Part shown: positions 15,008-32,663 of the stretch, piece by piece | Position numbering within the stretch: position 1 is the stretch's first letter | How the letters are laid out: the number at the start of each line of letters is the position of its first letter | DNA from: a virus | IMG/VR virus record: IMGVR_UViG_3300030102_007459 | Coordinates: 1 to 44,553 of that record | Length of the DNA stretch: 44,553 nucleotides | Strand: one strand, 5' to 3' | Translations under genes and position numbers: made by a program | Notes under the pieces: model-generated | Database searches by the model: none | Seen by the model: only the letters and a program-made list of their open reading frames with translations | Told to the model about the DNA's origin: nothing

Positions 15008-17863
15008 ATGCCGTTACCAGATTTAACAGGCCAAAACATACAGGATACATATCAGAGACTGGTACAAGTTGACGCCACAGGAAGCTTTACTGATGGTACT
15101 GGTAGCAATATACCTATTAGTATTGAGGGCAACAATGTTAGAGTGTCAGGTTCTATTATTGCACAGGAGTATATAGTTTCATCATCTGTTACAAATGTAA
15201 CATTTCAACAACAAAGTGGTTCAACTATATTTGGTGATAGTGTAGACGATATACATCAATTCACTGGAAGTTTATTGGCCTCACCTTCAATATCTGCACC
15301 TGTTATAACTGCAACCAGTACTTTTGCTGGTGATTTGATAGGTAATGTTACAGGTACTGCAACAGGTTTATCAGGTACACCATCAATAAGTGTAAACCAG
15401 ATAACAGCGTCAGGTGATGTAGCATTTACAGATGGTACAGACGTTACCATAACAACACAGGAAGGTTTAACTGTTAATATTGAAAATAGTGATTCAGGAA
15501 ATCAAACTGCATTTAAGGTGCACAATTTAGCACTGGAAAAAAACTTACTTGAAGTAAATGATTTAGGACAAGTTATTGTTGGAGTTCCTAATGCAATTCT
15601 TTCATCAAAAGGCGACCTCCAATTTGTTACTGATGTTAATGATGAAGACACTGATAATAAATTTATTTTTAAAAATCACACAACAACACTGGCAACATTG
15701 CATGAATCGGATGGATTTAATATAGAAACAAACATAACAGCCTCGGGTGCAATAAGTGCAAGTGGAAATTTAACAGCCGATAAGTTATCTGTAGGTGGAA
15801 TAATAGAACATATTGGCGATTCAGATACAAAAATATCATTTGCTAATAATAATGTTATACATTCAGTTGGTGGCGCTAATTATATCACTTTAGCTTCGAG
15901 TCCATCACAAAAAATTACATTAGGTAAAAATACATCTGTATCTGGTGAGTTAACAGCAACAAGTCATATAAGTACCACAGGAGATATAAGTGCAAGTGGA
16001 ACTATAGTAGGTTCAAATTTAAGTGGTACAAATACAGGTGATCAAGATTTATCTAATTTAGCAGTAACGGGAAGTGATGTAATATTTAATCACATAACAG
16101 CATCAGGTGATATAAGTTCAAGTGGTGATACAATATTAAATAATTTAACTGTACATGCAACTATGCTTTCTAATAGAATTGATCGTGTAGATAATGAAAA
16201 AATAGGTGTTCAATTTGGAGATGGAATTAATGTTTCTGGTGGTCATATAACCGCTTCAGGTAATATAAGTGCAAGTGGTGATCTATTTGTAAATGATGTA
16301 ACAGCATCAGGTATTCAAGCATCAAGTATTAATGCAACAACTAATTTCCGATTAGCTGGCGATTCAATTATAGGTAATTTTTTCGGATCACACTTAGTTG
16401 GAAATGCTAACTTTCCTCTTTTGTTAAATGGGTCACAAATAACTTTAGGCTTTGGTGCAATTCCTATTATTGCTCAAGGTAATTTTTCAGGAGCCCAAAT
16501 ATCAGCATCAGCAATAAGTTCAAGTGGAGAAGTACTTGCTTTTAAATTTAATGTTAATGGTTTAGGTTCAATATTCAATAGTAATGGTCATGTAAAATTT
16601 GGCCAAACACTACTACCTATTCACACTGCAAACATAACATCTTCGGGCAATATACAAGCAGATGGTAACATAAGTGCAAGTGGAACTATATTTGGAAATA
16701 TTGGTACATTTAATGATTTAGGAAATATAAGTGCAAGTGGAAATGTAGTAGCAGCTAATATAACTGCATCAGGAACTGTATCTGCAAGTACAGTTAGGGC
16801 AGGTTCAGGAGGATTAAGAGCAGATGATATTGTCATTACTGAAAATATAATTGGTGGTTCAGTAACACAAGTTAGATTTGCAGATAGTAGTACAAGAATT
16901 CAGCCAAGGGACGATGGCAACTTAGAACTAGTGGATGTACCCACTGGATTTTTTGACAAAGGCCTGCATTTAGGTAGTTTATCGGCATCAAACGATATTA
17001 GCTCAAGTGCAAATGTAATTGCTGATGCATTCTTTTTAGGTCCAAACCGTGAAGTATTATCATTTAGTGGAGATCAACTAAATATTAATTTTGGAGGACA
17101 ATTTGATTCAATAGGAATCGGACGAGGAAATACAGCTGTACCAATAATTGCATCTGGCCACTTACATGTTGTTGATCCAACCCAGCCACTCGGAGGTCAT
17201 ATAACAGCATCAGGAAATATTTCAGCAAGTGGAACAATAACAGCTGGAACATTTGCTGGTGCCACAACAAGTGGGGATCAATCAGGTAGTTTAGTATTAT
17301 CAGGTAGTTTAACACTAAGACCTAATGCTGCTTTTCCTGCAATTAGCTCAAGTGTTTTATATGCAACAGGTAGTGATGGAAAAGGAACAGCGCCATCTGA
17401 ATTGAGATTTGGTGGAATGCCAATTGGACCCTATACAACTATTATGATTAATTGCGGTTGGGTATCAGGTACTAATGCTAGAGTATATTTACCATTTGCA
17501 GAAGGTGGACTAAATGATTTAGCTACAACTAGTACTACCGTTACAGAGTTTCATTCAATAATTATGCCCTTTGATGGATATGTTGATCAAGTACTAGTAA
17601 GAAGTGAAAACAATTGTGGTGATGTAATAATTGGTACTCACATACAGTCAGATGGAACTGAAAGTCCATCGTCAACTCCAGGAGAGTCATTAACTATAGA
17701 CATGTCAACAGACGACACAACTAAAAGTTTCAAATTTACAAGTAGTACATTTACTGCAGGTCAAACATTAAGTATTAGTTTTGATCCTGTAAATTCAGGT
17801 GGAGATTGTATCGCTACTTTAATATTAAAATATGATTTAAGTAAACCTCATAGTAATAGCTAG
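15008..17863 (+). CDS. Long fibre-like protein built on ASGNISASG repeats
   Basis: 951 residues. After an N-terminal segment (LPDLTGQNIQDTYQRLVQVD) that looks like an attachment module of marine phage fibres, residues 240-760 carry repeated ITASG(N/D)ISASG units separated by 30-70 variable residues. The C-terminal 170 residues are a separate domain without the repeats (VYLPFAEGGLNDLATTSTTV; FHSIIMPFDGYVDQVLV; GGDCIATLILKYDLS), a likely tip or binding domain. No S74 motif. The following small gene begins six bases after the stop and may encode a partner. Its role in host contact is inferred. Confidence 0.82.
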   Translation: MPLPDLTGQNIQDTYQRLVQVDATGSFTDGTGSNIPISIEGNNVRVSGSIIAQEYIVSSSVTNVTFQQQSGSTIFGDSVDDIHQFTGSLLASPSISAPVITATSTFAGDLIGNVTGTATGLSGTPSISVNQITASGDVAFTDGTDVTITTQEGLTVNIENSDSGNQTAFKVHNLALEKNLLEVNDLGQVIVGVPNAILSSKGDLQFVTDVNDEDTDNKFIFKNHTTTLATLHESDGFNIETNITASGAISASGNLTADKLSVGGIIEHIGDSDTKISFANNNVIHSVGGANYITLASSPSQKITLGKNTSVSGELTATSHISTTGDISASGTIVGSNLSGTNTGDQDLSNLAVTGSDVIFNHITASGDISSSGDTILNNLTVHATMLSNRIDRVDNEKIGVQFGDGINVSGGHITASGNISASGDLFVNDVTASGIQASSINATTNFRLAGDSIIGNFFGSHLVGNANFPLLLNGSQITLGFGAIPIIAQGNFSGAQISASAISSSGEVLAFKFNVNGLGSIFNSNGHVKFGQTLLPIHTANITSSGNIQADGNISASGTIFGNIGTFNDLGNISASGNVVAANITASGTVSASTVRAGSGGLRADDIVITENIIGGSVTQVRFADSSTRIQPRDDGNLELVDVPTGFFDKGLHLGSLSASNDISSSANVIADAFFLGPNREVLSFSGDQLNINFGGQFDSIGIGRGNTAVPIIASGHLHVVDPTQPLGGHITASGNISASGTITAGTFAGATTSGDQSGSLVLSGSLTLRPNAAFPAISSSVLYATGSDGKGTAPSELRFGGMPIGPYTTIMINCGWVSGTNARVYLPFAEGGLNDLATTSTTVTEFHSIIMPFDGYVDQVLVRSENNCGDVIIGTHIQSDGTESPSSTPGESLTIDMSTDDTTKSFKFTSSTFTAGQTLSISFDPVNSGGDCIATLILKYDLSKPHSNS
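15733..17232 (+). repeat. Coding repeat region: ITASGNISASG units
   Basis: At least five diverged DNA copies of a unit like CATAACAGCATCAGG followed by TATAAGTGCAAGTGG occur near 15733, 16091, 16244, 16632 and 17198. Related units lie in the upstream fibre gene near 13246 and 13417. They are in frame and irregularly spaced, so they are protein repeats rather than a tandem array. Confidence 0.75.
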
Positions 17864-17869
17864 TTTAAT

Positions 17870-18445
17870 ATGCCAATTGAATCAATAGTACCAGACGCAA
17901 CAACACAACCAAACCCAGCATGGACAGGTGGTCTTCCTCATCAACAATTAGATGCAGCTGATGGTAACTTTATTTCTTGTGCAACCCCAGGAGAAAAATT
18001 TAATGTCTCATTTGGAAACTTAACATCTGATATAGCATCAATAAATTCAATAGTATTTGGCATTCAGGGAGGAGTAGATCTTGTTAGAGGAGTAACTGCA
18101 AATGCTAGTTTTACTATACTAGATAGTTCTGATTCAGTTTTATATGCAGCAGAAAATAAAAATTTCGATGACACTACCTTTGCCACTGTACAAGCAGGAA
18201 CAACAAGGACAACTAGTGATGGTTCAACTGCATGGACTGAATCTGATGTAAATGGTTTAAGAATGCAGGTAAAATTTAATTCTATTACTCCTGGTGGTGG
18301 ATCGTTTAAATTAAATTTTTTAAAAATTGATGTAGATTATGTTGAATTTGTTGATCCTAATGCTGGCCCATACAATAACTCTGCAAATAGTATACATATT
18401 GCATCAGGAAATATTAGTATAGTATCAGGTAACATATTTATATAA
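17870..18445 (+). CDS. Small virion-type protein of unknown role
   Basis: 191 residues, rich in Ser, Asn, Asp and Thr with alternating strands (SINSIVFGIQGGVDLVRGVT; FKLNFLKIDVDYVEFVDP), compatible with a single jelly-roll domain. The tail ends in two ASGNIS/VSGNIF units that echo the neighbouring fibre repeats. No ribosome site is seen in the six-base gap from the fibre gene. It may be a fibre-associated receptor-binding or capping protein, judged from position and composition only. Confidence 0.7.
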   Translation: MPIESIVPDATTQPNPAWTGGLPHQQLDAADGNFISCATPGEKFNVSFGNLTSDIASINSIVFGIQGGVDLVRGVTANASFTILDSSDSVLYAAENKNFDDTTFATVQAGTTRTTSDGSTAWTESDVNGLRMQVKFNSITPGGGSFKLNFLKIDVDYVEFVDPNAGPYNNSANSIHIASGNISIVSGNIFI

Positions 18446-18463: not shown

Positions 18464-20875
18464 ATGGACGAAAAAATAACATTAGGGAAGTGGTTAGCAA
18501 ATTCAATACTTCTAGAAGACACCAAAATAACAAAGGTGGTGGTAATATATCCAGGAAGATTCCAGCCTATGGGAAAACACCATGCACAAACATATAAAAC
18601 CTTAAAGTCAAAGTTTGGTGATGCATGGGTTGCAACAAGTGGAAAGGTTCAATTACCTAAGTCACCATTTTCATTTAGTGAAAAAAAGAAGATAATCAAT
18701 TCACATGGTATATCAAGAGTTGCACAAGTTAAAAATCCATATAGGGCAGATGAAATACTAAGTAAATATGATCCTAACACAACCGCCGCAATATTTGCTG
18801 TAGGTGCAAAAGATGCAAATAGGTTAGGTGGTAAATTTTTTAGACCTTGGAAAGGAAAGGCCGAAGTTGGGTATACTCAAGGTGCATATACAATTGTTGC
18901 TCCCCACCAAAGTCTAAATGTTAGAGGATATGGCGAAATGAGTGGCACTACTATACGACGTGCTTTAGGTGATAAATCACTAGATAAAAAAGAAAAGACA
19001 AAACTATTTAAGGATATATTTGGCCACACTAAAAACTACGATATGATTGTTAATAAACTCGAAAAGCTTAATGAAACTATTGAAGAATTTTGTGAAAAGA
19101 GTGATATTGCAAATCTTATTAAGGAAATATCAAAAAACAAAATATCTGCAAAAACAGATAAAGACAAAAATGAAATAGATGATGGACCTAGATATTTTTA
19201 TGCAACACAAAAATCATATAGGGCTGATACAAAAGAAATGGCTGAAAAGTTAGGAATGGAAGTTTTAAACTACATTGTACCAGATAATGAATTTTTTCAA
19301 CATGGAACAAAGTTTCCTAAAGGACCTACAGCCGCTGTGTCATATTTTCCAACAGGTGTACCAGGTGATTTTTATGGAGGTACAAGATATCTAAAAAATA
19401 AAATAGGTAGAGATGCATATGAAAGATGGAGTAAGTGGTCAAATTATTTGGCACAAGTATCAGGATATAAATTTATTGAATTTTTAAATGCAGATCTATC
19501 AATAGAAAAATCGGAAGAAGAACCTAAAAAACCTGATGGCGATATTGTACAAATACAAAAAGATTTAAAAACACAAAGAAAATCAGGAGAAGAGGTTGAA
19601 GTTGATCCTGAAGAAATAAATGTTAATGCACCTAATATTAATGAAAGTTATTCATCTTGGTTAGTAGATCAAATTCTTCTCACTGAAGGTGGTGCCTATG
19701 GCCACATGGCTCATCCATTTGATGATAGAGGTTTAACATTTGGTGATTTTAAAAGAATTATAGATATAGCACTTCAAGGAAGATTAGACTTGGAACAATC
19801 TGCAACTGAAAAAACAGATGGACAAAATTTATTCATATCTTGGACAAATAAACTTGTTGCAGCCAGAAATACTGGTGATATAAAAAGAGGAGGTCAAGAT
19901 TCTAAAGCAATTGCAAAAAAGTTTGCAGGAAGAGGTAATATTGAAAAGGCATTTAACTTTGCAATGCGTGATTTATCAAAGGCAATAGGTAGTTTAAGTG
20001 ATAAGCAAAAAACTAAAATATTTAACAATGGAAATAACTGGGTAAATATGGAAATAATGTACCCAGCGTCGTCTAACGTAATAAACTATGATGCTCCTAG
20101 ATTACAATTTCATAATGTATTACAGTATAAAGATGGTAGGGCAATAGGATCACTACCAGATGGCGCAAGAATATTAGCTGGTATGATTGCACAAGTAAAT
20201 CAAAATGTACAAAAAACATTTAGTGTAATTGGACCTAAAATATTAAAGGTTAAACGAAACCAAGATTTTGCAATAAAAAAACCATACTTTATTGGAAAAT
20301 TAAATAAACTTATGAGTAAACTAGGAATGAATGATAGCAATACATTTGCAGAATATCATCAAGCTTGGTGGCAGCAATATGTTGATAAAAATTTTGGTAA
20401 TGTTGAAAATAGAATAAAAATGGGGCTAGTTAAAAGATGGGCCTTTGGCGATAAGTCATTTAGATTAAATAGAAAAAATATAGATGATGAAAAAGTATTG
20501 GCAAAGTCAATTGATGTTGACAAACAGAAACACCAAACACAGGTTAAAAAGAATATGCTTCCATTTGAAAATCTATTTTTTGAACTTGGTGCAGAGGTAT
20601 TGAAAAATGCAGAAGGATTTTTAGCTGCAAACCCTAGTAAAGCAGTACAAGGAATACGAAAACAACTTGCATCTGCAATTTCATCAATAAGAAAAGGTGG
20701 TGACCTTAAAAAACTAAATAGGTTAGGTCAACAATTAAATAAAATAAAAGCAATAGGCGGTTTCAAAACAATAGTACCTAGTGAAGGTTTAGTTTTTATA
20801 TATAAAGGAAAAACCTATAAATTAACTGGTGCATTTGCCCCTATAAATCAAATAACTGGAATGATGACATTTTAA
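18464..20875 (+). CDS. Fused nucleotidyltransferase and ligase-like protein with repeated leader motifs
   Basis: 803 residues. About 25-200 is a cytidylyltransferase/NMNAT-like domain: YPGRFQPMGKHHAQT (P30-T43) is a variant of the GRFxPxHxGH nucleotide-binding motif and SGTTIRRAL is the closing ISSTxIR-type motif. About 240-350 is an unassigned domain (FYGGTRYLKNKIGRDAYERW). From about 410 comes a region resembling RNA/DNA ligases: Lys450-Thr-Asp452-Gly453 (KxDG), NMEIMYP (motif III-like), PSEGLVFIY (motif IV-like) and YKLTG (motif V-like). I recall the GGAYGHMAHPFDD..LTFGD ligase-like family from marine phages, mostly unassigned. WLxxxILLxE occurs at 10-18 and again at 399-408, just before each enzyme domain. 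Substrates are unknown; NAD-type or RNA repair chemistry is possible. Confidence 0.75.
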   Translation: MDEKITLGKWLANSILLEDTKITKVVVIYPGRFQPMGKHHAQTYKTLKSKFGDAWVATSGKVQLPKSPFSFSEKKKIINSHGISRVAQVKNPYRADEILSKYDPNTTAAIFAVGAKDANRLGGKFFRPWKGKAEVGYTQGAYTIVAPHQSLNVRGYGEMSGTTIRRALGDKSLDKKEKTKLFKDIFGHTKNYDMIVNKLEKLNETIEEFCEKSDIANLIKEISKNKISAKTDKDKNEIDDGPRYFYATQKSYRADTKEMAEKLGMEVLNYIVPDNEFFQHGTKFPKGPTAAVSYFPTGVPGDFYGGTRYLKNKIGRDAYERWSKWSNYLAQVSGYKFIEFLNADLSIEKSEEEPKKPDGDIVQIQKDLKTQRKSGEEVEVDPEEINVNAPNINESYSSWLVDQILLTEGGAYGHMAHPFDDRGLTFGDFKRIIDIALQGRLDLEQSATEKTDGQNLFISWTNKLVAARNTGDIKRGGQDSKAIAKKFAGRGNIEKAFNFAMRDLSKAIGSLSDKQKTKIFNNGNNWVNMEIMYPASSNVINYDAPRLQFHNVLQYKDGRAIGSLPDGARILAGMIAQVNQNVQKTFSVIGPKILKVKRNQDFAIKKPYFIGKLNKLMSKLGMNDSNTFAEYHQAWWQQYVDKNFGNVENRIKMGLVKRWAFGDKSFRLNRKNIDDEKVLAKSIDVDKQKHQTQVKKNMLPFENLFFELGAEVLKNAEGFLAANPSKAVQGIRKQLASAISSIRKGGDLKKLNRLGQQLNKIKAIGGFKTIVPSEGLVFIYKGKTYKLTGAFAPINQITGMMTF

Positions 20876-22070: not shown

Positions 22071-22466
22071 ATGGGATTAGGATTAGGAAAGTTATTCAGT
22101 GGTGGCGCTGCTGATTTAGTTGAAGGTGTAGGAGGAGTACTCGATAATCTAACAACAACAAAAGAAGAAAAACTAGCTGCAAAACAAAAAATGAAACAAT
22201 TGGTTGCAGACTATGAAACTAAAATGGAGGCCAACATTACTGATAGGTGGAAGGCTGACATGAACAGTGATTCATGGTTAAGTAAAAATGTAAGACCATT
22301 AGTACTAATATTTTTAGTAGTATGTACAATGCTTATGATTTTTATTGATGCAGGAACAATTGAATTTACAGTTGAAGAAAAATGGACAGATCTATTACAG
22401 TTAGTACTTATTACTGTTATTGGTGCTTACTTTGGTGGGCGTTCGTTTGAGAAACGAAAAAAATAA
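22071..22466 (+). CDS. Holin, 3TM (gene-transfer-agent release) type
   Basis: 131 residues: a Gly-rich N-terminal amphipathic start, a charged helix (EEKLAAKQKMKQLVADYETK), then DSWLSKNVRPLVLIFLVVCT leading into the first clear membrane span, and a second span (LLQLVLITVIGAYFGGRSFE). SWLxxNVRPLxL and YxGGRSxEK are hallmarks, as I recall them, of the GTA_holin_3TM family. Such proteins release progeny through the inner membrane. AAGGA precedes ATG. It is immediately upstream of the terminase, where T4-like phages often place gp16; no gp16-like gene is seen here. Confidence 0.75.
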   Translation: MGLGLGKLFSGGAADLVEGVGGVLDNLTTTKEEKLAAKQKMKQLVADYETKMEANITDRWKADMNSDSWLSKNVRPLVLIFLVVCTMLMIFIDAGTIEFTVEEKWTDLLQLVLITVIGAYFGGRSFEKRKK

Positions 22467-22483
22467 CAATTAAGAAAATATAA

Positions 22484-24064
22484 ATGTCTAAACACACGTC
22501 AATGAAAGATATTGTTCGAGAAGAGTATAAACGATGCTCTCAGGACCCAGTGCATTTTATGAAAAAGTACTGTATGATTCAACATCCAACACGTGGAAAG
22601 ATAAATTTTAACTTATATGAATTTCAGGAAAGATCATTACTTGACTTAATGAATCATGACTATAATGTTATTTTAAAATCAAGGCAGTTAGGTATATCTA
22701 CATTAACTGCAGGATATTCATTATGGTGTATGTTATTTAATGAAGATTTTAATTCATTGGTAATTGCAACAAAACAGGATGTTGCCAAAAACCTTGTTAC
22801 TAAAGTTAGAGTAATGCATCAGTATTTACCTAGTTGGCTTAAAGGTACTGTTATTGAAGACAATAAATTATCATTGAGGTTAAATAACGGATCTCAAATA
22901 AAAGCAGTTTCAGCTGCAGGTGATGCTGGTCGTTCTGAAGCATTATCACTATTAGTTATGGATGAAGCTGCATTCATTGATAAGATTGATGAAATCTGGG
23001 CATCTTCACAACAAACATTGGCAACAGGTGGTAGGGCAGTAATACTTAGTACACCTAATGGTACAGGAAATTTCTTTCATAAAATATGGACTAATGCAGA
23101 ATCAGGTCTAAATGAATTTAATACAATAAAGCTACATTGGAGTCTTCACCCAGAACGTAATCAAAATTGGAGAGATAGGCAGGATGAATTACTTGGTCCT
23201 AAAATGGCTGCACAAGAATGTGATTGTGATTTTGTTAGTTCAGGTAATTTAGTCATTGATGGAACACTATTACAATGGTATGAAGAATCATCATGTAAAG
23301 AACCGTCTGAAAAAAGAGGGTTTGATGGAAATTACTGGATATGGGAATACCCAGATTATTCTAGAGACTATATGGTGGTTGCCGATGTAGCACGAGGAGA
23401 CGCATCTGATTTTTCTGCATTTCATGTTATAGATATTGAATCAGTTACTCAAGTTGCAGAATATAGAGGTCAGCTTACTCCAAAGGAATTTGGAAATATG
23501 TTAGTGGCTGTTGCAACCGAATATAACGAAGCACTGCTAGTTATTGAAAATGCCAATGTAGGTTGGGGTGCAATACAAAGTGCAATTGATAGGGATTATC
23601 AAAATCTATATTATACATATAAACAGGATGGAGTTGTTGATGCAACTACACAATTAACAAAAGGTTATGATTTAAAAGACAAGTCTCAAATGACTCCAGG
23701 TTTCACTACATCATCTCGTACAAGACCACTTTTAATATCAAAACTTGATATTTATTTTAGGGAAAAAGAATGTCTTGTTAGGTCTAAACGTCTAATTGAA
23801 GAACTAAAAGTTTTCATTTGGAGAGGACATAAGGCTGAGGCACAAAGCGGATATAATGATGATTTGGTAATGTCATTTGCCATAGCATTATGGGTTCGTG
23901 ATACTGCACTTAAGTTGAGGTCTCATGGTTTGGAATTAAACAAAAGGGCAATTGGTCTTATTGGAAAAAATAGTGGCATATATTCTTCTAATTCTCAAAA
24001 CACGCAGGATTGGAAAATGAAAATTAAAGGAAAGGACGAAGACTTAACATGGCTAATAAAATAA
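22484..24064 (+). CDS. gp17: Terminase large subunit (gp17)
   Basis: 526 residues (T4 gp17: 610). The ATPase half has the terminase Walker A variant K65-SRQLGIST, Walker B with Asp160-Glu161 (LLVMDEAAFI), and the coupling motif STPNGTGNFF. The nuclease half begins VVADVARGD with catalytic Asp301, followed by LLVIENANVGWG and GYNDDLVMSFAIA, supplying the further acidic residues. It drives DNA into the prohead and cuts the concatemer at headful. The start follows a weak AAGAAA ribosome site. The absence of a small-terminase gene beside it is noted; the portal follows 15 bases later. Confidence 0.95.
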   Translation: MSKHTSMKDIVREEYKRCSQDPVHFMKKYCMIQHPTRGKINFNLYEFQERSLLDLMNHDYNVILKSRQLGISTLTAGYSLWCMLFNEDFNSLVIATKQDVAKNLVTKVRVMHQYLPSWLKGTVIEDNKLSLRLNNGSQIKAVSAAGDAGRSEALSLLVMDEAAFIDKIDEIWASSQQTLATGGRAVILSTPNGTGNFFHKIWTNAESGLNEFNTIKLHWSLHPERNQNWRDRQDELLGPKMAAQECDCDFVSSGNLVIDGTLLQWYEESSCKEPSEKRGFDGNYWIWEYPDYSRDYMVVADVARGDASDFSAFHVIDIESVTQVAEYRGQLTPKEFGNMLVAVATEYNEALLVIENANVGWGAIQSAIDRDYQNLYYTYKQDGVVDATTQLTKGYDLKDKSQMTPGFTTSSRTRPLLISKLDIYFREKECLVRSKRLIEELKVFIWRGHKAEAQSGYNDDLVMSFAIALWVRDTALKLRSHGLELNKRAIGLIGKNSGIYSSNSQNTQDWKMKIKGKDEDLTWLIK

Positions 24065-27350: not shown

Positions 27351-27575
27351 ATGCCAGGACTAGACGAAAATAGCATACCACCAGCACAAGGTGGAATAAC
27401 AAAAAGACCTGAAACAATATCGGGAAAACTTGAGTCTCTCGTTGACGGTGCAATACAGGGTCAAATAGCAAAACCACAAGTTAAACATTCAGACCCATTA
27501 CCTGAGTTAGAATCACCAGCACCTGGATCCTCAACTCTTGATATTGATGGAACGCCAGAAAAGTACGCAGGATAA
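27351..27575 (+). CDS. Small proline-rich protein of the head-core cluster
   Basis: 74 residues, disordered and rich in Pro, Gly, Ser and Lys (SIPPAQGGITKRPETISGKL; PLPELESPAPGSSTLDIDG). Good AGGAG ribosome site. It lies directly before the prohead protease, where T4 encodes gp67/gp68, which shape and fill the prohead core. No sequence motif proves this; low complexity makes homology hard to judge by eye. Confidence 0.65.
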   Translation: MPGLDENSIPPAQGGITKRPETISGKLESLVDGAIQGQIAKPQVKHSDPLPELESPAPGSSTLDIDGTPEKYAG

Positions 27576-27579
27576 TGAT

Positions 27580-28212
27580 ATGAATAAAAGATTACTGATA
27601 GATTATATACCTTTTCACATATCACCCCAAATGATTGCTGAATCTGAGCAAAAAAATAATGGAAGGGTAATTGTGACTGGTATATTACAAAGGGCTGGTG
27701 CAAAAAACCAAAATGGACGTGTATATCCTAAGGCTGTTCTTGAAAGAGAAGTTGCTGAATATAAAAAAGTTCAGATTGCAGAAAGACGAGCTCTTGGAGA
27801 ACTGGACCATCCTGAATCATCAGTAGTAAATTTACAAAACGTAAGTCATAATGTATTGGATTGTTGGTGGAAAGGTGATGATGTTATGGGCACAGTTGAA
27901 ATATTAAATACTCCTAGCGGTAGAATACTAAAAGAGCTACTTGCTGCAGGCATAAAGTTAGGTATTAGTAGTAGGGGATTAGGAAGTGTTGAGTCCTTAC
28001 GTGAAGACACTGTTGAAGTACAACCTGATTTTGAATTAATATGTTGGGACTTTGTAAGTAATCCTTCCACTCATGGTGCATTTATGAAACCAATGAATGA
28101 AAGCGTAAACAATATAAAAGTAAATAAATATGCAGGAGTTAATTCTGTTATCAATGACATTATCTGTGAAGTAACAGGAAAATGTGAAATAAAAAAATGT
28201 GGTTGTGAATAA
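27580..28212 (+). CDS. gp21: Prohead core protease (gp21)
   Basis: 210 residues from ATG at 27580; T4 gp21 is 212. An in-frame ATG at 27538 lies inside the preceding gene and lacks support. Catalytic signatures: His77 in RALGELDHPES and the serine of GISSRGLGSV (Ser130 or Ser131), with KNQNGRVYPKAVLEREV near the N-terminus. This is the herpes-like serine protease family that matures the T4 head by cutting scaffold, internal proteins and gp23 after (L/I)xE. The C-terminus ends with a Cys cluster (CEVTGKCEIKKCGCE), which is unusual and might bind metal or be trimmed. It lies four bases after the previous stop. Confidence 0.92.
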   Translation: MNKRLLIDYIPFHISPQMIAESEQKNNGRVIVTGILQRAGAKNQNGRVYPKAVLEREVAEYKKVQIAERRALGELDHPESSVVNLQNVSHNVLDCWWKGDDVMGTVEILNTPSGRILKELLAAGIKLGISSRGLGSVESLREDTVEVQPDFELICWDFVSNPSTHGAFMKPMNESVNNIKVNKYAGVNSVINDIICEVTGKCEIKKCGCE

Positions 28213-28229: not shown

Positions 28230-28967
28230 ATGAAACTTAAAAAGATACTAAGCGAAAATCAAGAATTGAATTTTACTCCAAAACAAAAGCGTGCCTTTTT
28301 GGAATCAATTTCTAAATTTAATGAATATGGTCAATCAATATACCGAACCAGTAAACTTAAAGAGGCTGTTAGTGAAATCGCAGGATTAGTAGATATGGCG
28401 TCTAAAGTTGCAGTGAATGAAACTGGTGACTGGTTTGATAATGTATCAGTTAAACGTGATATGAAAGGATTGTCTGAATCTATGTCAGTATTTGAAAAAA
28501 CCGCTGATGAAATGGGAGCATTACAACAAAGATTAGAATCACTATATGAAGATATGGGGCACAAGCTTGGTAAGTATTATGAAATAGCTGAAAAGATTGA
28601 CAACATTGATGATAAAGAAGCTGCAATGGACTTTAAAGATTTACCAGATAAAGATATTGACAATGATGGTGATGTAGATGATTCTGATTCATACTTACAT
28701 CATAAACTAGGTAATGTTGCAAAGAGAGTTGAAAACAGGATGAGTAAATTAGCAGGTATTAAAGAAGCTGCACCTAAAATGAAAATTTCTCCGTTTTCAT
28801 CAAAAGTAATGACACAAATGCAAATCCTAAGTGGAGTTGAACAACAAATGAAGTTCAAGGATAAAAATGGTTATGATAAAACTAAAAATGCATTCAAAAA
28901 GGCAAAGAAAGCTATGATGGATTTATCAGGTGCAATTAGAATGCATGGTTCAAATCTAGTTAAGTAA
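28230..28967 (+). CDS. Head-core-region protein with EF-hand-like loop
   Basis: 245 residues, helical. The 12-residue loop D142-I-D144-N-D146-G147-D-V149-D-D-S-D153 fits the calcium-binding EF-hand/dockerin consensus (acids at 1, 3, 5 and 12, Gly at 6, hydrophobic at 8), followed by SYLHHKLGNVAKRV. I recall the DKDIDNDGDVDDSD..L segment from many marine T4-like phages; no function is assigned. The N-terminus MKLKKILSENQ carries an LxE-type site (LSE) like prohead-protease targets, fitting a core or internal protein. Strong AAAGGAAG ribosome site. Confidence 0.75.
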   Translation: MKLKKILSENQELNFTPKQKRAFLESISKFNEYGQSIYRTSKLKEAVSEIAGLVDMASKVAVNETGDWFDNVSVKRDMKGLSESMSVFEKTADEMGALQQRLESLYEDMGHKLGKYYEIAEKIDNIDDKEAAMDFKDLPDKDIDNDGDVDDSDSYLHHKLGNVAKRVENRMSKLAGIKEAAPKMKISPFSSKVMTQMQILSGVEQQMKFKDKNGYDKTKNAFKKAKKAMMDLSGAIRMHGSNLVK

Positions 28968-30998: not shown

Positions 30999-32663
30999 AT
31001 GTCAAACATAAGTAATTTATTAAACGATGCTTCTAATAGCTACAATGAAAATTTAGCTAAAACTAGAAGTCTTGTTGGAAAATGGAATAAGACTGGTCTT
31101 CTTGAAGGTATCAACCAAGAGTATGATAAAAGTGGAATGGCTGTTCTACTAGAAAATCAAGCTCGTCAATTAATAGATGAAAATTCAAAAACAGGTACAT
31201 CTTCAAACTCGGAAGAGTGGTCAGGTGTAGCTTTACCATTGGTAAGAAGAATTTTCAGTGAAATTGCTGCTAAAGATTTTGTATCAGTACAACCAATGAA
31301 CTTACCTTCAGGACTAGTATTTTTCTTAGATTTTAAATATGGTACAGCTTTAGGCTCAGGCCAATTTAATCAAGGATCTGACATTTTCGGAAACACTTCA
31401 TCTTCAGGTGATGCTAAAGGTGGTCTTTACGAATCATTCGGATTAGGAAATAATAGTAAAATGGGATATTCAATATCTCAATCATTAAAAGAAGATGCAA
31501 CTGCAACTGTAGCAGATACTTCTTCAGTAACTGTAAGAAATGCAATCTGGAAAGATCTTGGATTCTCTGCTGACTTATCAGCATCTGTTGCTGCAGGTCA
31601 AGTAGGACGAATCACAATAGCAAAAGGTCAATTTACAAATCCAGATATGGAATCAGTTAAAGGATGGGCATTTACATCTGCATCAGGTACAGGACTAGTT
31701 GGTGGTTCAACTCTTAATGCTGACAACCAATTAGGTGCATTTAATCATGTTGATGGTACAAATGTAGTATTATTTATTACACAATCTACAGGTCAAACAA
31801 TATCAGCTAATAAGAATCAAGTTTATTTCTTTAAAGGCGATAACGTTGATACTGCAAGAGGTGATTTTGAAGATACTTCTGGTACTGGTGATACTGATAT
31901 AGGTATTCCAGAAATTGATGTTGAATTAAGAAGTGAAGCTATTGTTGCTAAGACTAGAAAATTAAAGGCTGTTTGGTCACCTGAGTTCGCTCAAGACTTA
32001 AACGCTTATCACTCAATTGATGCTGAAGCTGAATTAACTTCTATGTTATCTGAATATATTTCAATGGAGATAGATTTAGAAATTTTAGATATGTTAATCA
32101 CAAACGCATTAACTACTGAGTTCTGGTCAGCTACAATTGGTGAAACATTTAACTCAACCAATGATACATGGACAGCTGCTTCAGGTGCTGAGGCATATCA
32201 ACAAGGAACTTGGTTCCAAACTTTAGGTACTAAAATGCAAAAAGTTTCTAACCAAATTCATGCTAAGACTTTAAGAGGTGGTGCTAATTTCGTGGTTTGC
32301 GGACCAGAAGTTGCAACAATCTTAGAATCTATTCCAGGATATGCTGCTGACACTGATGGAACTGCTATCGGTAAAACTGGATTTGCAATGGGCGTACAAA
32401 AAGTAGGTGCATTGAATAACAGATTTACTGTATACAAAAATCCATATATGCAGACTAATACTATCTTAATGGGATTCAGAGGAACTCAGTTCTTAGAAAC
32501 TGGTGCGGTATATGCTCCGTACATTCCACTTATCATGACTCCATTAGTGTATGATCCTAAAAACTTTACACCAAGAAAAGGTGTAATGACGAGATACGCT
32601 AAGAAAATGGTAAGACCAGAATTCTATGGTAAGATCTTTGTTAAAGACTTAAATGTAGTATAA
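30999..32663 (+). CDS. gp23: Major capsid protein (gp23)
   Basis: 554 residues (T4: 521). Family signatures: LLENQARQLIDE near 50-61, GVALPLVRRIFSEIAAKDFV, SVQPMNLPSGLVFFLDFKYG, then the HK97-fold body with KTRKLKAVWSPEFAQDL, ISMEIDLEILDMLI, and the end MTRYAKKMVRPEFYGKIFV. In T4 the prohead protease removes about 65 N-terminal residues after an xxE site; IDE at 59-61 or LLE at 50-52 are candidates here. Codons lean to GCT, ACT and TCA more than in neighbouring fibre genes, as expected for high expression. GAGGAG ribosome site; a strong terminator follows. Confidence 0.95.
   Translation: MSNISNLLNDASNSYNENLAKTRSLVGKWNKTGLLEGINQEYDKSGMAVLLENQARQLIDENSKTGTSSNSEEWSGVALPLVRRIFSEIAAKDFVSVQPMNLPSGLVFFLDFKYGTALGSGQFNQGSDIFGNTSSSGDAKGGLYESFGLGNNSKMGYSISQSLKEDATATVADTSSVTVRNAIWKDLGFSADLSASVAAGQVGRITIAKGQFTNPDMESVKGWAFTSASGTGLVGGSTLNADNQLGAFNHVDGTNVVLFITQSTGQTISANKNQVYFFKGDNVDTARGDFEDTSGTGDTDIGIPEIDVELRSEAIVAKTRKLKAVWSPEFAQDLNAYHSIDAEAELTSMLSEYISMEIDLEILDMLITNALTTEFWSATIGETFNSTNDTWTAASGAEAYQQGTWFQTLGTKMQKVSNQIHAKTLRGGANFVVCGPEVATILESIPGYAADTDGTAIGKTGFAMGVQKVGALNNRFTVYKNPYMQTNTILMGFRGTQFLETGAVYAPYIPLIMTPLVYDPKNFTPRKGVMTRYAKKMVRPEFYGKIFVKDLNVV

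Follow-up and report, generated by a model that had tools for sequence, protein, structure and literature searches.

A probable head-internal enzyme polyprotein with a capsid-targeting-like leader in a T4-like phage

The 44,553-base IMG/VR virus record IMGVR_UViG_3300030102_007459 (here called the window, meaning the whole stretch of DNA that was analysed) is probably a fragment. On its plus strand lies a gene whose product joins two enzyme-like domains, a third domain between them, and two leader-like segments. We think it probable that this gene encodes a head-internal polyprotein, that is, a chain led by a capsid-targeting sequence (CTS), packed into the prohead, relieved of its leader, probably cut in its linkers, and injected as enzymes into the host. 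The evidence consists of sequence analyses and of published proteomics of other phages. The gene and its parts are listed below, a slash marking each candidate cut.

18464..20875, plus strand: putative polyprotein gene, 803 amino acids, 90.5 kDa, pI 9.6
18464..18517, plus strand: N-terminal leader, residues 1-18 (MDEKITLGKWLANSILLE), ending in candidate site 1, LLE/D
18518..19126, plus strand: domain 1, residues 19-221, NMNAT/PPAT-like nucleotidyltransferase, 22.8 kDa, pI 9.8
19118..19126, plus strand: candidate site 2, residues 219-221, IKE/I
19127..19687, plus strand: middle domain (DDGP motif) and linker, residues 222-408, of no known family, pI 5.1
19658..19687, plus strand: second leader-like segment, residues 399-408, WLVDQILLTE, ending in candidate site 3, LTE/G
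19688..20872, plus strand: domain 3, residues 409-803, ligase-like nucleotidyltransferase, 44.2 kDa, pI 10.0

An initial annotation, made from the letters alone, had pointed to the segments WLANSILLE (residues 10-18) and WLVDQILLTE as standing each before an enzyme domain. The translated reading frame contains both, and fold matches place them before an NMNAT/PPAT-like domain and a ligase domain resembling that of T4; that two-domain, two-site description holds as far as it goes, but it missed the middle domain and the third site at E221. Pfam, PHROGs and NCBIfam scans of the whole protein returned no match. In the structure model, a helix is predicted at residues 7-16 of the leader, and confidence falls below 50 (predicted local distance difference test, pLDDT) at residues 15-19. 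Domain 1 is modelled at about 88 pLDDT over residues 22-212 and resembles phosphopantetheine and nicotinamide-nucleotide adenylyltransferases (PPAT and NMNAT; profile E 0.007 to PDB 2qjt, fold E 6e-4 to PPAT 3k9w). Its motifs are GRFQPMGKHH and SGTTIRR; among those of the HIGH superfamily, SGTTIRR and the last histidine are kept, but HxGH reads GKHH, and its enzymatic activity is therefore uncertain. The middle domain is conserved in relatives, with an invariant DDGP-type motif. Domain 3 (mean pLDDT 83 over residues 409-803) has the conserved ligase motifs I, IV and V as EKTDG, EGLVF and YKLTG, corresponding to KxDG, EGxV and the motif V lysine. Its best PDB fold match is T4 RNA ligase 1 (Rnl1; E 0.017, probability 0.85, with a low TM of 0.24), and viral RNA ligases turn up repeatedly among its weaker hits in predicted viral structures.

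The same architecture is found in eighty viral contigs, at 58-71% identity; the top-ranking match, at 100% identity, probably comes from the same virus as the window. The family is large and marine, with at least 584 stretches in viral contigs found to encode it in a scan with the ligase-domain alignment, and a genome scan gave a single match in a cellular bin, a Pelagibacteraceae metagenome-assembled genome, which is probably phage sequence. Longer members exceed 1600 amino acids, keep the ligase last in the chain, and add kinase, SH3-like, Nudix, poly(A)-polymerase/CCA-adding-like, nucleotidyltransferase-like and PF05618 protease-like modules. One example of the last module lies in contig L094 (1450-5058), and some polyprotein relatives may thus carry their own peptidase. 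In Agrobacterium phage Atu_ph07 (2275-4611 of the sequence), an ADP-ribosyltransferase-like domain (YRGM) precedes the same kinase module, the junction being VTE/GVNDKHIFKA; this gene and two of its neighbours begin with M[KR]W[NE][DQ]L[NT]E.

The conservation of the candidate cut sites was measured in 57 non-redundant relatives, less than 90% identical to one another. T4 gp21 cuts after L/I-x-E (PMC9026906), a motif that both LLE and LTE fit, as originally claimed. At residue 18, [LI]xE is kept in 91% of relatives and E18 itself in 98% (53 relatives), with 11 variants at P2. At site 2 (I219-K220-E221), P3 is restricted to I or L and P1 to E in all 57, with ten different P2 residues; P1' is mostly A, N or S, and a linker of variable length begins directly after it. 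At site 3 (E408), P3 is only L or I, P1 is E, P1' is G, and eight residues occur at P2, so that LxE/GG is present in 57 of 57 close relatives. All three sites hold leucine or isoleucine at P3 (some leaders have V instead) and E at P1 and leave P2 free, as expected for the gp21 motif. With [LI]xE at 100% of both internal sites, the pattern exceeds chance; these homologous sequences are, however, not independent, the shuffle statistics given below ignore kinship, and the motif is short.

The window protein has only six [LI]xE triplets in 803 residues (18, 204, 208, 221, 394 and 408), all in the leader or linkers, and the candidate sites fall at or in low-confidence segments between the modelled domains. 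Of the 138 module junctions in longer relatives, 125 contain [LIV]xE, where shuffling gives 67.8 +/- 5.2, and module interiors are depleted of it (168 versus 219 expected). The kinase module begins with E/G[VIL]xDPGI or a near variant in most phages seen, whether it directly follows a leader as a separate protein or forms part of a longer chain. In aligned major capsid proteins from this phage group, a QLI[DQSK]E/[ANS]-type site is conserved at the presumed end of the propeptide, closely resembling site 2. The ligase domain opens with GGAYGHM (19688-19708), which does not vary, or hardly varies in the case of longer relatives, and lies outside the modelled fold; it may represent a conserved mature N-terminus. 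The possibility that LLxE/GG is a mere strand of the ligase fold was considered and is weakened, as residues 409-416 are outside the modelled core with pLDDT below 50.

The leader itself, short, N-terminal and ending in L/I-x-E as in head-internal proteins of the T4 type, is kept in every close relative with an intact start. In T4, the first ten residues of IPIII suffice for packaging (PMC9026906). Leaders of other types recur on unrelated genes of related phages. Nineteen of the 456 open reading frames (ORFs) of phage LR756500 begin with the T4-like CTS MKYIxxYxxFLxE, a pattern with no internal occurrence in its 106,168 residues; several of the 19 are paralogues of one another, and one encodes a relative of the ligase alone, beginning MKFLKSYEEFLNE. 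In the marine relatives and Microcystis phage Mel-JY01, 22 of 731 ORFs begin with MIKLKDILNE-like leaders, where about 0.1 would be expected. In the marine relatives this type is common to 18 families without detectable mutual similarity, among them a kinase and a Nudix protein, both of which are also polyprotein modules. Several of the leader-bearing LR756500 genes (L206-L225) encode repeat-rich paralogues resembling leucine-rich-repeat proteins, which are candidate injected effectors against host factors.

Published virion proteomes connect such leaders with the particle. For Synechococcus phage S-CREM2 (PMC10665884), a loose leader pattern fixed beforehand picked out 5 of the 28 non-structural or hypothetical proteins detected in virions; it picked out 6 of 167 undetected proteins and none of the 24 structural ones (Fisher p 0.011). 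A stricter M[KQ]xFxxFLxE-type leader, its CTS shape picked after seeing the list, marks five genes, all virion-detected (p 6e-4 to 4e-5): a SAM hydrolase, an APH-like kinase, an NMNAT-like cytidylyltransferase, gp13 and gp136. The NMNAT of phage S-SCSM1, also reported in virions (PMC9602691), begins with MKSFLQFLKE/A. Judged by these leader types, the leader appears to act as a transferable packaging tag, in agreement with the initial view of it as capsid-targeting-like. S-CREM2 further encodes a virion-detected Cas9-like nuclease, gp12 (OR473000.1, 7704-10313, minus strand), with a CTS-like RFASFMAE/AA at about residues 18-25, which suggests a packaged and injected nuclease. S-SCSM1 gp90, examined as a possible ligase-like relative in virions, proved not to be one.

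The single-domain relatives with a leader that the initial annotation proposed to look for were found: the LR756500 ligase, the NMNAT-like proteins of S-CREM2 and S-SCSM1, and single kinases. Its account of the protein as a fusion of two former head proteins, each with its own leader, was not borne out for the second leader. The full WL..QILL second leader is restricted to a derived subset of relatives; in a quick ligase tree, such leaders branch from within members that have just a short LxE/GG junction, requiring about four changes, and they resemble leader 1 (LG.WLA.QIL). The second leader is therefore most likely a derived insertion, a later copy of leader 1, and its reading as a relic of a fused gene is rejected on this tree. 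The broader idea of an interchange between separate tagged enzymes and fused forms is supported: phage HTVC008M has separate, neighbouring kinase, ligase-like and NMNAT-like genes, but its ligase-like protein is not linked by sequence to the polyprotein ligase.

The window carries T4-type late genes for holin, terminase, portal, prohead protease, scaffold, major capsid protein and sheath, some of these names being presumptive. Holin and terminase (22071-24064) lie 3' of the polyprotein gene, followed by portal through major capsid protein, and the terminase, portal, protease, scaffold and capsid genes all lie within 12 kb downstream. Three of these neighbours bear directly on the question:

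27538..28212, plus strand: gp21-type prohead protease, presumed processing enzyme (PHROG 207, E 2e-58)
28230..28967, plus strand: second leader-bearing gene, N-terminus MKLKKILSE, adjoining the protease
30999..32663, plus strand: major capsid protein, gp23-like (PHROG 138), presumed propeptide end QLIDE/N

The presence of gp21 had been correctly recognized; its start is at 27538, the position 27580 given before being an internal start of the same ORF. A protease of this type is present in 14 of 15 related records. Within the window, the gene at 28230 is the only one to share the MIKLK-type leader, the type common to the 18 families of related phages, and its product is possibly a core or internal protein. 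No identification was obtained for the upstream genes (15008-18445), which may encode tail proteins.

The packaging interpretation held up in each of the tests applied. We propose that the amphipathic N-terminal leader would serve as CTS and draw the chain into the prohead core, where the gp21-type protease would remove it at LLE/D and probably also cut the linkers at IKE/I and LTE/G. This would free three products, the basic NMNAT/PPAT-like enzyme, the small acidic domain and the basic Rnl1-like ligase, which would remain inside the head and pass into the host along with the DNA; there the enzymes would most likely work on nucleotides, NAD or RNA in the early phase of infection. Whether NAD, CoA-type or RNA chemistry is concerned is a guess from the domains.

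Several observations weigh against this proposal. The [LI]xE motif is short enough to occur by chance; P1' at site 1 is D, E, N or Q; LNE204, conserved in 93% of relatives, lies at the end of an NMNAT helix and may be no site; and the middle domain is poorly modelled, with low pLDDT. The strict S-CREM2 pattern was narrowed post hoc, the beforehand pattern giving only the p of 0.011, and virion presence is known from single-domain NMNAT-like relatives only. Finally, 27 of 61 longer relatives have M or C in place of E before the ligase; of these, 22 have another [LIV]xE within 45 residues and five have none, and cutting before the ligase is therefore not essential in all lineages. This last point favors the idea that the leader alone is cut, the three domains staying joined as an injected, classic polyvalent protein and the linker LxE serving other ends such as helix capping or contacts. 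Some packaged multidomain proteins, such as the N4 virion RNA polymerase, do remain unprocessed (PMC5512222), but the invariance of P3 and P1 at site 2 around a free P2 and the enrichment of junctions over domain interiors speak for cutting, and we find this idea unlikely.

The other two explanations deny the protein a place in the head. It could be an ordinary cytoplasmic fusion enzyme of nucleotide or RNA metabolism, its leaders being oligomerization or docking helices; plausible cytoplasmic roles exist for both enzyme domains, but the sharing of a leader type by unrelated genes in each phage, its tracking of virion presence in S-CREM2, and the NMNAT-like relatives found in virions make this improbable. 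Less credible still is a tail or baseplate protein, encoded near tail-fiber-like genes and steered by its leader into tail assembly. The upstream genes may be of the tail, and T4 Rnl1, to which the ligase fold is matched best, is also a tail-fiber attachment factor. Against this, no such leader occurs in the virion-detected structural proteins of S-CREM2, mostly of tail and baseplate, and the downstream genes are those of head and packaging.

If the polyprotein interpretation is true, capsid maturation doubles as polyprotein processing, and a single packaging tag supplies the host with several enzymes at a fixed ratio from the onset of infection. More broadly, we lean towards the view that marine T4-like phages use a strategy resembling that of RNA viruses, in which one tag leads a modular chain of enzymes (NMNAT-like, ligase-like, kinase, Nudix and poly(A)-polymerase-like modules) that the prohead protease would cut into injected proteins. 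The new element would be the CTS-led polyprotein of enzymes of the prohead-protease type; literature searches turned up no description of a comparable polyprotein processed by a prohead protease. The leader also offers a simple sequence rule for predicting injected proteins in uncultured T4-like phages.

A close known counterpart is the cytidylyltransferase-like protein of Mel-JY01 (WWT39297.1), the one cultured phage in which this gene family was found. It has the same NMNAT and ligase fusion at about 42% identity but is about 640 amino acids long and has neither a full second leader nor the middle domain. The cyanomyovirus proteins S-CREM2 gp154 and S-SCSM1 ORF91 are likewise NMNAT-like and leader-bearing, of the T4 type in both, and are virion-detected; unlike the window protein, they are single enzymes without ligase fusion. 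The papers describing them (PMC10665884, PMC9602691) raise contamination as an alternative and could not exclude it. The leader argues against contamination, and would support true packaging of NMNAT-like enzymes, kinase and SAM hydrolase in cyanophage virions.

With polyvalent proteins (Iyer et al. 2017, PMC5512222), the window protein and its relatives share the joining of disparate enzymatic domains in a single polypeptide, a mosaic make-up, the prediction that they are injected along with the DNA, and a gene adjoining packaging genes, as expected of that class. The text of that paper, when searched, contained no capsid-targeting sequence and no NMNAT, and mentioned RNA ligases only as not associated with its 2H domains. 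Its processing theme is that of zincin-like metallopeptidases, whereas the presumed processor here is a separate prohead protease; the scans found no embedded peptidase domain in the window protein, such a domain being common in, but not required of, polyvalent proteins. The T4 proteins IPI-IPIII and Alt provide the other half of the comparison, with a short L/I-x-E leader found on unrelated proteins, basic enzyme domains, and a gp21-type protease in the genome. The window protein differs from them in its leader sequence, in its NMNAT/PPAT-like and ligase-like enzymes in place of ADP-ribosyltransferase, and in carrying several domains per chain with further conserved sites between them.
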